A stretch of 64,000 bases of DNA. Origin: an uncultured delta proteobacterium. GTDB taxonomy: Bacteria > Desulfobacterota > Syntrophia > Syntrophales > UBA8958. The DNA lies in the NCBI GenBank assembly GCA_903885795.1, contig CAISJV010000019.1, forward strand, positions 62,001-126,000. The letters run 5' to 3'. The position numbers and the translations under genes are program-made. The notes beneath the pieces were generated by a model. The model saw only the letters and a list, made by a program, of their open reading frames with translations, was not told the origin of the DNA and made no database searches. Positions 31,399 through 35,626 of the stretch are shown here, in pieces (position 1 is the first letter of the stretch; each line of letters opens with the position of its first letter).

Positions 31399-32469
31399 TT
31401 ACAGAGGCCCTCTTTTACCGTTATGGGCTTTAATAGCCGCGTCAATGACCCGGCTGATGAAATCGGCCTGGGTAATGCCGGCGGCGGCGGCCTGATGAAA
31501 CAGTACCGTCGAAGGCGTCATCCCGGGCAGGGTATTGGGTTCAAGAACGGATACCCTCCCATCGGGACGGACAAACATATCAATGCGGGCGTAACCTTTG
31601 AGGTCCAGGACTTGGAAGGTTGCGATCGCCGTTTCCTGAATTTTTATCAGGACATCATCGGGAACCCTGGCCGGGGTCTTGTTTTCTCCCTGACCATACA
31701 GAAACTTGTCCTCCAAAGAAAGGATGTCGTCGGTCGGAACCGTCTCCGACGGTGTGAGAGCCAGCGGCGGATCGTCCCCCAGGACACCGCAGGTAACTTC
31801 CATTCCGGTGAGGAATTCCTCCACCAGAGCCACATTGTCCCAGGTGAAGGCGGACTCTATAGCCGCGGCGACTCCCTCAATGGAGACAACCTTTTTCACG
31901 GCGGTGCTGCACCCTTCCCTGGTAGGCTTGACAATACAGGGAAAACCTGTCTCTTTTTCCACCCGGGCAAGAATCTTTTCCCGCCCTACCCCATCCCATG
32001 TCTTCCTGAAAACTGGAATAGTCACGGGGACGTCAAGACCGCTCATGGACAGGATACGGCGGCAGACATATTTATCCATTCCCAGTGCCGAGGCAAGAAC
32101 CCCCGAACCCGTATAGGGAATATGCAATAACTCGAGGAGTCCCTGGATGCATCCGTCTTCCCCATACTTGCCATGCAGGCCAAGATAAACGAGATCGGTG
32201 CAGTCCTTCAGGGATTCATACGGAATCTGTCTGGCTTCCGTCTCCAGATCATCCTCGATGTCCCTGGTACTGTTTCTCATGAGGAGCTTCAAGGGAATAT
32301 CCCAGAGGCGGGCCTGAGAGTCCATAAACACTGCCAAGGGATCGAATCTTTTTCGATCCATCTTGCTGAATATATTCCGGCCGCTCTCCAGAGAAACTTC
32401 TTTCTCCGAGGATACCCCCCCCATGATAACCGCAACTCTGAGCTTTTTCGATATCATCTCACCTGCCAT
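31399..32469 (-). CDS. D-alanine--D-alanine ligase family protein (paralogue 1)
   Basis: ATP-grasp ligase of about 356 residues that would join two D-amino acids for peptidoglycan. The ATG at 32469 is preferred because the frame before it lies in an intergenic repeat. The metal-binding motif is canonical (LEPNTLPGMTP, near 311), as is GGVSSEKEVSLESG at the N terminus. The serine loop normally read EGSSVGV is EGCSTAV (near 188), and the omega-loop region reads EDKFLYGQGEN, without the Tyr of D-Ala-D-Ala enzymes. Its specificity may differ from D-Ala-D-Ala. It is translationally adjacent to mlaE and 105 bases after the second ligase. Confidence 0.85.
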   Translation of the reverse strand: MAGEMISKKLRVAVIMGGVSSEKEVSLESGRNIFSKMDRKRFDPLAVFMDSQARLWDIPLKLLMRNSTRDIEDDLETEARQIPYESLKDCTDLVYLGLHGKYGEDGCIQGLLELLHIPYTGSGVLASALGMDKYVCRRILSMSGLDVPVTIPVFRKTWDGVGREKILARVEKETGFPCIVKPTREGCSTAVKKVVSIEGVAAAIESAFTWDNVALVEEFLTGMEVTCGVLGDDPPLALTPSETVPTDDILSLEDKFLYGQGENKTPARVPDDVLIKIQETAIATFQVLDLKGYARIDMFVRPDGRVSVLEPNTLPGMTPSTVLFHQAAAAGITQADFISRVIDAAIKAHNGKRGPL

Positions 32470-32474
32470 AATCA

Positions 32475-32512
32475 ACCCCATCCCCACCCTGCCTTCCCCT
32501 TAAAGGGAGGGA
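32475..32512. repeat. short intergenic C/G-rich hairpin repeat
   Basis: A C-rich tract (CAACCCCATCCCCACCC) followed by CTTCCCCTTAAAGGGAGG, resembling the stretches at 49083-49127 and 49911-49947. It occupies the gap between the two ligase genes. Confidence 0.45.
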
Positions 32513-32592
32513 AACATGGAAACACTTCCCCAATTTATTCTCGCGGCGACGTGGAAATTGTCCGCATATTTCCCATATCGCCTATTGCCTTC

Positions 32593-33648
32593 TTAAAGCG
32601 GCCCTCTTTTCCCCTTGTGAATGGCGAGGGCGTTCTGAATCAATGCTGATATCATCATCGACGGCAACATCCCGGCGCTGGCCGCCTGCTCAAAAAAGAA
32701 TGAAGACGGGGCCATACCCGAGGATGAATTCGGATCGGTAATAAAAATCCTGCCATCATTCAGGTAGAAACCATCGATACGTCCGTAGGATCGAAAGCCG
32801 AGCACTTCAAAGGCTTTCGCTGCTTCCGCCTTGATTTTCGCCGCTGTTTCCAGGGGAATGTTTTTGGGCGGCGTGAATTTCCGGCAACGTCCCGGCATGT
32901 ACTTGTCGTCATAGGTGTAAAAGGCGCTCTGGGGATAAATCTCTGTCAGATCCAGGGGCGCGATCTCGCCTTCCCGCTCCAAAACGATACAGGAAAACTC
33001 GATGCCTTCGAGAAATTCCTCGATCAGCACCGCCCGGTCCCAGCGCAAGGCCTCTTTTATTACCCCATCCAGATCGGCCATATCAGAAATTTTGCCTACC
33101 CCGACACTCGATCCTTCCCGGACCGGTTTGACAAAAAAGGGCAGGACAAAATTTTCCCGCAACTTTTCCTGCACTCGCCCCGGCGCCCGCAACCATTCAT
33201 CTTCATAGACAACCATACTTTTCGGGACGTCAATCCCCGCCGCCGCCAATATTTTTTGCTGGATATGCTTGTCCATCCCCAGGGCGGACGCTAAAACCCC
33301 CGGTCCCGTATAAGGAATCCCGAGGAGTTCGAGGAGACCCTGGATACATCCGTCATCACCGTATTTACCATGGAGGGAAATGAAGGCAAAATCAATGTTC
33401 TCTTTCAACGCTTCATAGGGCATCCTCTTGGCTTCGCTTGCCAAACGTTCCGTAATATCGACAGTCGTATTCTGGGATACCAGTTGCCAGGGGATCTCCC
33501 AGAGACCACCATCGCCATCCATAAACAGCGGCGCTCCCTCGTAGCATTCCGGATCGAGATTGTCATAGACATTCCGACCACTGTTGAGGGATACCTCCCG
33601 CTCCGATGACATCCCCCCCAGGATGATACCCACCCGTAATTTGTTCAT
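32593..33648 (-). CDS. D-alanine--D-alanine ligase family protein (paralogue 2)
   Basis: ATP-grasp ligase of 351 residues, clearly related to its neighbour (both end in HKGKRGPL or HNGKRGPL). Here the serine loop is canonical (EGSSVGVGK, near 179) and the omega loop has the Tyr pattern (FYTYDDKYMPG), but the metal site reads ITDPNSSSGMAP (near 304) where EPNTLPGM is expected: Glu becomes Asp, and the Thr-Leu-Pro segment becomes Ser-Ser-Ser. It may be a less active or repurposed enzyme. The ATG at 33648 has AAGG just before it. It begins 17 bases after the alanine racemase gene. Confidence 0.85.
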   Translation of the reverse strand: MNKLRVGIILGGMSSEREVSLNSGRNVYDNLDPECYEGAPLFMDGDGGLWEIPWQLVSQNTTVDITERLASEAKRMPYEALKENIDFAFISLHGKYGDDGCIQGLLELLGIPYTGPGVLASALGMDKHIQQKILAAAGIDVPKSMVVYEDEWLRAPGRVQEKLRENFVLPFFVKPVREGSSVGVGKISDMADLDGVIKEALRWDRAVLIEEFLEGIEFSCIVLEREGEIAPLDLTEIYPQSAFYTYDDKYMPGRCRKFTPPKNIPLETAAKIKAEAAKAFEVLGFRSYGRIDGFYLNDGRIFITDPNSSSGMAPSSFFFEQAASAGMLPSMMISALIQNALAIHKGKRGPL

Positions 33649-33667
33649 CAACCTTAAGCTGCCTTTC

Positions 33668-35626
33668 TTAAGAATCCCAGACGAAGGTCACACCGCTGTT
33701 CGGAAAAATCCAGGTATGATTCGGAGCCCGGAGACGTATATATTTGCCTTTTTCCCGAATGACTTCCGGATAAGGGTGCTTGCCTGCGAAAAAACTCACC
33801 TCTCGGACATGCCGGAAACCCGTTTTCTCATAATTGAAGGAAATATCGAGTCCCCGGGTCGGATAGACAACATAGACGGAAAAAATGTTGTTCGTCCGGG
33901 ATTTCTTCGTAAATATCTCGATAGCCACTTCAACCTGGATATTGAGCTTTTCCCGCAGGGCCTCATGGCTGCACCAGACCTCATAACCCCGGGAGGTCAT
34001 TTCAGTGCGGATGATTGGAACATCAATGTCATCGATACTTACCCTGGCAACGCGAAAATCCCTCTCCATCACCAGATTTTCCCCCCGGCTCATAAGCCAG
34101 CGGTATTCACACCGGGGATCTTCAAAAAACGCGGCCAACTGTTCCTCATCAAAGGCACAGCCAATGACGAAAGCGTCGTTTTTCAATGATTTTTTATAAG
34201 AGACCCGGGTGGTTACATTCAAGGCATCTTCGCGTCGGGCCGCCTTTCCATCTTTCCCTGCATCGATCTCGGCGACGCTTATATCATAACGGAAGTCTTC
34301 CCGCAATTCCAACTGCCGATCCTCTTTTCCGAAGAGGGTCTCGAACATTTCGTAGTAGATTGCATCCCCTAATTCCTCGCTCCGGGCCCGGGTTTGAAAA
34401 CACTGACGAATGATGCTGTCGATCCTGTCGATAGACCGCTCTTCGTCAGGGATATAGATGCGCCTCAGCCTTGGCAGAATAGTGTCCGCCTTTCCCTTAT
34501 GGATAAACAACCGGGGCGCCCGCTTCCCTAGGGCACAAAGGATTTCATAGCTGATGCTACCCACACGACCGGCGATTTCATTGGCAGAGATTGATTCCTG
34601 TCCCTGCCGTCCCATGAGAACGACCTCGTCTCCAACCTGGCAATCCGTAATACCGCTCACATCTACAGTACACATATCCATGGAAACCCGGCCGATGACG
34701 GGTGCGCGCTTCCCCCGGATGAGAACCTCTCCCTGATTGGAAAGAATGACACCATAGCCATCGCCGTATCCTACCGGTATCGTTGCGATCCTGGTCGGCT
34801 TATCGGTGATGTAGGTACGATTGTAACCAATACTGTATCCCTTCGGAAAATCCTTCAGCAACACGATCCGCGTCTTGAAAGACATCACCGGCAACAGGTC
34901 CGCTTTGTCCCTTGTCTCCGGTGAAGGATAGATACCGTAGGACATGAGACCCGGCCTCACCATGTCGAGATTGAACTGGGGGTAGTTCAGGATGGCGCCG
35001 CTGTTGGACATATGCCGGATAGGAATACGGATTCCCGCCTCTTCCAGTTGCGCGAGAAGACGACTGAAAAGCTGTGCCTGCCCCTCGTTATACTCCAGAA
35101 GCGTCTCACTCGAGGAAAAATGGGTGAAAATCCCTTCTAGGATAAGATTCGGAAGGGCGAGGATATCCCTGATGGTCTGAAATGCCTCGTAGTAAATGGT
35201 CCCCCCACGTCCCATACCCGTATCCACCTCGACATGAGCCGGTATCCGGACATGGGCCTTCTCACAGCGATCCTGGAGGGATCTTGCAAAATGCAGGTCG
35301 GAGACGGAAGGGGTGAGATTGTACTTGATGATATCGCCGATTTCCCCTTCCGGTGAGGGGCTGAGGATTACGATTGGCGACATTACGCCGCTGACTCGGA
35401 GCTGGACGCCCTCATCGGCGTTGGCCACCCCAAGATAGACGGCGCCGTTTTTCAGGGCCACCTCGGCAATTTCGATGGCCCCGTGACCGTAGGCATCCGC
35501 CTTGACCACCTGGAGGATCTTCACGCCCGGTCGGACCAGACGCTTCATCTCCTTCCAGTTCCTGGCAAAATGATCCAGGTCAACCTCGACCCAACTCCGG
35601 TATTTATGAACTTCCTGATAAGGCAT
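33668..35626 (-). CDS. alr: alanine racemase fused to a C-terminal domain of unknown function
   Basis: PLP-dependent racemase making D-alanine for peptidoglycan. Residues 1-375 are a complete Alr: the PLP lysine in VVKADAYGHG (Lys42), HMSNSGAIL, GYNRTY with the second catalytic Tyr region, and RVSMDM. Normal Alr ends near 370 residues. Here about 275 further residues follow: a linker, a helix-rich segment with RQCFQTRARSEELGDAIYYEMF, then two beta-rich parts ending in WIFPNSGVTFVWDS. I do not recognise this domain. Two ligase genes follow, so the racemase feeds them directly. Fusion frame is continuous, with no sign of a frameshift. Confidence 0.92.
   Translation of the reverse strand: MPYQEVHKYRSWVEVDLDHFARNWKEMKRLVRPGVKILQVVKADAYGHGAIEIAEVALKNGAVYLGVANADEGVQLRVSGVMSPIVILSPSPEGEIGDIIKYNLTPSVSDLHFARSLQDRCEKAHVRIPAHVEVDTGMGRGGTIYYEAFQTIRDILALPNLILEGIFTHFSSSETLLEYNEGQAQLFSRLLAQLEEAGIRIPIRHMSNSGAILNYPQFNLDMVRPGLMSYGIYPSPETRDKADLLPVMSFKTRIVLLKDFPKGYSIGYNRTYITDKPTRIATIPVGYGDGYGVILSNQGEVLIRGKRAPVIGRVSMDMCTVDVSGITDCQVGDEVVLMGRQGQESISANEIAGRVGSISYEILCALGKRAPRLFIHKGKADTILPRLRRIYIPDEERSIDRIDSIIRQCFQTRARSEELGDAIYYEMFETLFGKEDRQLELREDFRYDISVAEIDAGKDGKAARREDALNVTTRVSYKKSLKNDAFVIGCAFDEEQLAAFFEDPRCEYRWLMSRGENLVMERDFRVARVSIDDIDVPIIRTEMTSRGYEVWCSHEALREKLNIQVEVAIEIFTKKSRTNNIFSVYVVYPTRGLDISFNYEKTGFRHVREVSFFAGKHPYPEVIREKGKYIRLRAPNHTWIFPNSGVTFVWDS

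Follow-up and report, generated by a model that had tools for sequence, protein, structure and literature searches.

D-Alanine-D-alanine ligase (Ddl) is a textbook cell-wall enzyme and a target of D-cycloserine, and it has been studied as a homodimer. The window analysed here, a stretch of 64,000 nucleotides from an uncultured delta proteobacterium of the order Syntrophales (contig CAISJV010000019.1, positions 62,001 to 126,000 of the forward strand), carries two tandem Ddl paralogues, P1 and P2, which we think are probably the two parts of a single ligase. The genes, their motifs and the adjoining racemase are listed below; residue numbers, here and throughout, are those of E. coli DdlB.

31399..32487, minus strand: P1, Ddl paralogue 1 (362 aa; GTG start, internal ATGs possible)
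31507..31542, minus strand: P1 EPNTLPGMTPST, metal / second-substrate loop, intact
31681..31722, minus strand: P1 LSLEDKFLYGQGEN, omega loop, Phe at Tyr216
31897..31917, minus strand: P1 EGCSTAV, phosphate-loop motif, Cys at Ser150
32593..33651, minus strand: P2, Ddl paralogue 2 (352 aa; start TTG, or ATG at 33648)
32701..32736, minus strand: P2 DPNSSSGMAPSS, metal / second-substrate loop, altered (E270D, P275S, T278A)
32890..32922, minus strand: P2 FYTYDDKYMPG, omega loop, Tyr216 kept
33097..33117, minus strand: P2 EGSSVGV, phosphate-loop motif, intact
33668..35626, minus strand: alanine racemase (alr) with a 277-aa C-terminal extension, directly upstream of P2 (TIGR00492, 356 bits; cut-off 168)

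Two Divergent Ddl Genes Behind an Alanine Racemase

P1 and P2 are about 44% identical, and both open reading frames (ORFs) are full-length. Each scored above the cut-offs of three NCBIfam Ddl subfamilies and matched PF01820 and PF07478 over cut-off; against NF002528 (cut-off 262) the scores were 274.4 bits for P1 and 271 bits for P2. No other strong PF07478 match was found in their own genome, where five weaker matches (24-46 bits) fell in longer open frames of 487-1073 codons. Transcription on the minus strand runs from the alanine racemase through P2 and P1 to mlaE-, mlaF- and mlaD-like genes (names read from the translations), and the gene of an HExxH protein follows mlaD. The racemase upstream of P2 likely supplies the pair with D-Ala.

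The original prediction held that each paralogue lacks what the other keeps, and the motifs on which it relied are present: EGCSTAV and EPNTLPGM in P1, and EGSSVGV, YTYDDKYMPG and DPNSSSGM in P2. In P1, Ser150 is replaced by Cys, Gly153 by Ala, Tyr210 and Tyr212 by Leu, Tyr216 by Phe and Ser281 by Thr, with the metal site (EPNTLPGM) intact, while P2 has Ser150 and Tyr216 intact. One detail had to be revised. The omega loop of P1 is altered as proposed, but the telling change is Tyr216 to Phe (KFL) together with Leu at Tyr210 and Tyr212, and not GQGEN itself. In the altered metal loop of P2 (DPNSSSGM), Asn272, a metal ligand, is retained, and Asp, a similar residue, takes the place of Glu270.

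The Complementary Changes Are Conserved Among Relatives

Conservation was assessed in residue tables of rows covering at least 80% of the query, with copies contained in another row removed and the Syntrophales groups confined to rows above 55% identity. All 67 distinct Syntrophales P1 sequences had C150, L210, L212, F216 and T281 (A153 in 63), and E270, N272, P275 and G276 were intact in every one. The 52 distinct P2 sequences of the order uniformly had S150 with G153, D270 and A278, and Ser or Ala in place of P275; Y216 was present in all 51 that could be read at this position (one row was unreadable). Over all P1-type rows, F216, L210 and T281 were found in 84/84 and C150 in 82/84, with Glu270, Asn272 and Pro275 intact. 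Over all P2-type rows, S150 was kept in 69/69 and Y216 in 68/68 readable rows, and P275 was lost in 69/69; Asp270 occurred in 64, and the remaining five had His272. E15, K97, K144, K215, R255 and D257 were kept in every readable row, P1 and P2 alike.

For comparison, the ordinary Ddls among the retrieved loci resembling P1 or P2 numbered 49 (Syntrophales without the pair, 13; Patescibacteria, 24; other bacteria, 10; E. coli, 2). S150, G153, Y216, E270, N272, P275 and G276 were invariant in all of them. S150, G153 and Y216 are missing from P1 of the window, and E270 and P275 from its P2. VanA, kept apart from these 49, has E215 and V216. The complementarity first noticed in the window thus extends to two phyla and to both split and fused arrangements, as counted in the 84 P1-type and 69 P2-type rows. 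Both motif changes proved to be conserved among relatives, nearly without variation in the 67 P1 and 52 P2 Syntrophales sequences, and no relative whose paralogues both keep all motifs was seen among the sequences compared.

Ratios of nonsynonymous to synonymous substitution (dN/dS) against five relatives were 0.074-0.128 for P1 and 0.074-0.112 for P2. Purifying selection is strong on both genes, and similar. To judge from these sequences, the split between P1 and P2 across the order is neither chance nor recent decay, because the paralogue-specific residues are near-invariant and dN/dS is low. Decay would mean that one or both copies have been losing function since duplication. It could point to paralogue-specific losses at otherwise invariant residues and to the few copies with stops or breaks in assemblies. 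With dN/dS of 0.07-0.13 in both genes, little or no variation within the order at most of the changed residues, and identical or corresponding changes found again in another phylum, decay is refuted as a general account and we give it hardly any credence.

P1 and P2 Are Kept Together or Stand Replaced by an Ordinary Ddl

Genomic co-occurrence was scored in 80 relatives, the window's own genome included, among the matches listed (down to an E value of about 3e-13). Both genes were present in 54 genomes, P1 only in four, P2 only in three, an ordinary Ddl in 13 and none of these in six; no genome with an ordinary Ddl plus P1 or P2 was found among these matches. In all seven one-sided genomes a contig ends within ~1.4 kb of the expected position of the partner, and in one of them (G012) the contig with the racemase also ends at the expected partner site. 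In 42 of the 54 genomes with both, P1 follows closely behind P2 in the same orientation, at a distance of 10 to 1350 bases. The two are on different contigs in 11 others, and in genome G013 both are kept, ~378 kb apart on one contig.

The spacing between the genes varies in content as well. Several Syntrophales have an ORF of ~262-279 codons between P2 and P1, by eye seemingly that of a secreted or outer-membrane protein:

L042, 4126-4956: ORF between P2 and P1
L049, 4170-4955: ORF between P2 and P1
L054, 4154-4960: ORF between P2 and P1
L067, 4138-4974: ORF between P2 and P1
L069, 4163-4957: ORF between P2 and P1

The gap in the window, of ~100 bases, is without the ORF seen in these five loci.

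Within a single genus (g22), the pair and an ordinary Ddl occupy comparable places. Genome G044 has the order cyclase-alr-P2-P1-mlaE-mlaF-mlaD, and three other species (G028, G055 and G063) have alr-ordinary Ddl-HExxH protein; among the matches listed, P1 and P2 are both absent from these three. As one ordinary Ddl is found where the pair stands, the pair as a whole appears to do the job of one Ddl.

An alternative is that P1 and P2 are two separate homodimeric ligases, P2 making D-Ala-D-Ala and P1, by way of Phe216 and Cys150, D-Ala-D-lactate or another D-Ala-X ending. The available text of one study states that Phe or Tyr at position 216 decides between depsipeptide and dipeptide activity in lactic acid bacteria (PMC5996685). 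In the accessible part of another, Ser150 and Tyr216 are described as conserved in Ddls making only D-Ala-D-Ala, and changing both gives DdlB weak D-Ala-D-Lac activity (PMC7691350). P1 is changed at both of the positions linked to depsipeptides in these two sources (Phe216 in all 84 rows, Cys150 in all but two). Nevertheless, we consider this alternative unlikely. In the three g22 species a single ordinary Ddl with Tyr216 follows the racemase, which would make any second product dispensable; yet among the matches listed, once contig ends are set aside, none of the 61 genomes with P1 or P2 had lost just one of them. A match to PF01427, a family wider than VanX, was obtained in 12 of the 47 genomes carrying P1 or P2 vs. 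7 of the 13 lacking them; a VanX-type peptidase therefore does not follow the pair, and a Van-like system was rejected on this ground. The altered metal loop of P2 would also be odd in a main Ddl. Finally, P1 lies far below the cut-offs of all Van and D-Lac models among the best 25 of 33 families, with 181.5 bits to NF000206 (cut-off 550) and the other Van models also below theirs.

The C-terminal extension of the racemase (33671-34501, minus strand) has no Pfam match and was matched in 74 of the 80 relatives, whether these carry the pair or an ordinary Ddl.

The Pair Recurs in Patescibacteria, Where It Can Be Fused

The pair was found across the order Syntrophales and has a patchy distribution in Patescibacteria. 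In the window's own phylum, a close match was obtained in 8 of 395 genomes (own included), all from its own order, and in none of eight other genomes of that order. Tandem pairs were found in the Patescibacteria contigs L102 and L103 and in genomes G088, G110 and G150. A split pair occurs in 4 of 145 sampled Patescibacteria genomes (that of L103, G088, G110 and G150), and no further pair was found in the class of the L102 genome (one of 233 genomes sampled, L102's own). Split P1 of Patescibacteria had F216, E270, N272 and P275 in 5/5 and C150 and G276 in 3/5 each. The corresponding P2 kept S150 and Y216, had E270 in 5/5, and had L63 (H63L), H272 (N272H), T275 and I276, each in 5/5. Both members of the L103 pair scored below the three Ddl subfamily cut-offs.

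No ordinary Ddl was found in the L102 and L103 genomes in addition to the pair, and 15 further Patescibacteria genomes with a pair or fusion yielded just two extra matches above 50 bits. Neither was accepted as an extra Ddl: the 98-bit protein in G088 is by sequence a distant Ddl-like ATP-grasp protein, and the 78-bit match in G1017 belongs to a protein of two other ATP-grasp modules. Among three single Ddl matches in the class of G080, L206 and L207 have ordinary motifs.

Six Patescibacteria ORFs of 775-814 codons encode two Ddl modules in one chain, and a wider search of 379 Patescibacteria genomes gave 12 full fusions (~800 residues) and one contig-edge fragment. The order is P2 then P1 in 12/12, as in the split genes. 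In every fusion the N-terminal half is P2-like (S150, Y216, D270 and N272, with P275 replaced) and the C-terminal half P1-like (C150, L210, F216 and T281, with E270, N272 and P275 intact). The C-terminal half differs from Syntrophales P1 in keeping G153 and, in 6/12, in having Ala at G276. L146 was considered as a MurC-Ddl and rejected; it is a P2-P1 fusion whose first half falls within the P2 group and second half within P1 in separate trees, and it was left out of the residue table of Syntrophales, Patescibacteria split pairs and ordinary Ddls. Racemase-Ddl or racemase-P2 fusions in long open frames (G013, L095) were likewise rejected, as the upstream parts look by eye like out-of-frame open stretches.

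In a first tree of 94 rows, P1 of both phyla formed one group (support 100/96), P2 another (98/91, with one fusion row inside), and the remaining ordinary rows a third (100/100). A second tree of 77 rows, built with the fusions and with roughly half the Syntrophales and ordinary rows used in the first, again gave P1, P2 and ordinary Ddl as three groups (98/94, 96/88 and 100/100). The trees are unrooted and do not decide whether P1 and P2 are sisters; a quick FastTree run joined P1 with P2. The two-part split is, on these trees, an old one that crosses phyla.

These observations also bear on the proposal that P1 is the sole working ligase and P2 a Ddl derivative with a separate job, as a D-Ala sensor or a ligase of other D-amino acids, that does not bind P1. 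P1 does keep the metal ligands, the metal loop of P2 is altered in 69/69 rows, and the split P2 of Patescibacteria has in addition H63L and N272H in 5/5. Against this stand the joining of P2 to P1 in one chain in 12 Patescibacteria genomes and, among the matches listed, both the lack of P2 beside P1 just at contig ends and the joint absence of the two genes from G028, G055 and G063 of g22, which have an ordinary Ddl. We therefore regard this proposal as improbable, more so than that of two separate ligases.

Some features of the Patescibacteria loci were observed in passing. The order alr-P2-deformylase-P1 recurs in L150, with P2 adjoining the racemase; the peptide-deformylase-like gene between P2 and P1, identified by reading its translation, lies at 4946-5482 in L150 and at 6128-6679 in L152. 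Other Patescibacteria pairs sit amid genes read as murein genes. In G1017, locus L237 (C39:29500-33500) holds an 811-codon frame with two other ATP-grasp modules, the second distantly Ddl-like, at most 7 kb from the gene of the P2-P1 fusion.

Structure Models and a Proposed Two-Part Ligase

The predicted model of P1 (mean pLDDT 84.9) aligned with Salmonella DdlA over 334 residues with Z 40.7, and that of P2 (mean pLDDT 87.8) over 333 residues with Z 38.0; as modelled, each has the full Ddl fold. Known Ddls dimerise via helices 3, 4 and 5 together with a portion of helix 8, and the binding pockets have several interface residues close by, according to PMC6899670. The conserved interface residues named there correspond, by our mapping, to DdlB G70, G74, V88, A92 and D96; the two Syntrophales types retain most of them, the split P1 of Patescibacteria fewer.

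On balance, and with moderate confidence, we favour the reading that P1 and P2 together constitute one two-part D-Ala-D-Ala ligase that replaces the ordinary single-gene homodimeric Ddl. Its main support comes from the fusions, the co-retention and the swap. The most likely arrangement would be a P1-P2 heterodimer formed via the usual Ddl dimer interface. P1, with its ATP and metal site intact, would make D-alanyl phosphate and carry most of the catalysis. P2 retains Glu15, Ser150 and Tyr216 around the second substrate but has the altered metal loop; it would be indispensable to P1, either positioning substrate or exerting control over P1 across the interface, and would alone be at most weakly catalytic. 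In some Patescibacteria both parts would reside in one polypeptide. Physical pairing, the catalysing subunit and D-Ala-D-Ala as the product are what we infer from sequence; the mixed dimer is backed indirectly, by co-retention, by the position of an ordinary Ddl next to the racemase in other species of the genus and by the natural P2-P1 fusions.

A stronger version, which we put forward only tentatively, is that this may be the first known obligately two-part Ddl, in which each subunit is inactive by itself, the formation of the acyl phosphate and the handling of the second substrate are shared out between unlike subunits, and a split pair and a single-chain fusion both exist in place of the homodimer. 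A search of open papers, judged by their titles and the opening lines of abstracts, returned no report of a two-part bacterial Ddl.

Several points weigh against a two-part ligase. Each subunit of known Ddl structures has its own complete active site, so the changes in P1 and P2 cannot simply be pooled into one site. With a full predicted fold and most catalytic residues in each, P1 and P2 might each be active alone; E270D in P2 is conservative, and N272 is kept in Syntrophales P2 and in the fusions. Enzymes that work next to each other can become fused too, and the fusion halves are on long branches in the 77-row tree. In the g22 swap, nothing but the racemase side and the HExxH gene is common to both arrangements; neither the cyclase nor the mla genes were found next to the ordinary Ddl of G028, G055 and G063. 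Six of the 80 relatives have neither the pair nor an ordinary Ddl among the matches listed. In two of these (G054 and G065) contigs end at or within the racemase, but G020, which is 96% complete, shows neither among those matches nor in the 2.4 kb of contig C67 (L240) after the racemase; G034, G039 and G075 likewise have neither among the matches listed. In addition, one stop inside the match was flagged for each of three genes (P1 of G004, P2 of G040 and P2 of G070), and in the assemblies both G052 and G074 have P1 in two pieces.

Relation to Known Ddl Systems

P1 and P2 share with ordinary Ddl (DdlA/DdlB type; TIGR01205, NF002528) the fold, length, domain make-up, core catalytic residues and racemase neighbour, and they are the sole strong Ddl-type genes found in the genome. 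However, an ordinary Ddl is one homodimeric enzyme, whereas here there are two diverged genes or a P2-P1 fusion, each part without residues that its partner keeps. E. coli also has two Ddl paralogues in one genome, DdlA and DdlB, but both keep S150, Y216, E270, N272 and P275, and their genes are unlinked. With the LmDdl2-type D-Ala-D-Lac ligases of lactic acid bacteria (Phe at 261), P1 shares the Phe at the Tyr216 position in 84/84 rows, which P2 does not have, and a replaced Ser150, in P1 mostly by Cys. P1 differs from that type in having a partner and in not being followed by a VanX-type peptidase; it also lies outside the ordinary Ddl group, in a tree that held VanA and no LmDdl2-type sequence.

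A parallel to the fusions may be found in plants, whose DDL is described in PMC9954125 as a fusion of two DDL enzymes present throughout the plant lineage. By that description it resembles the P2-P1 fusion in having two Ddl modules in one protein. The moss Ddl is reported, in the accessible text of PMC9434261, to be closest to the Fibrobacteres-Chlorobi-Bacteroidetes group. The fused plant Ddl may be a relative of the two-part Ddl or a parallel case.

If our reading is true, this Ddl would illustrate how an essential enzyme may come to be shared between two dissimilar proteins, in an arrangement that has been maintained throughout one order and also occurs in another phylum. It would also offer a natural means to separate the two Ddl half-reactions and would bear on the question of why plants have a fused double Ddl. 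Annotations of 'Ddl present' in these genomes hide two proteins, each of which may be useless alone.

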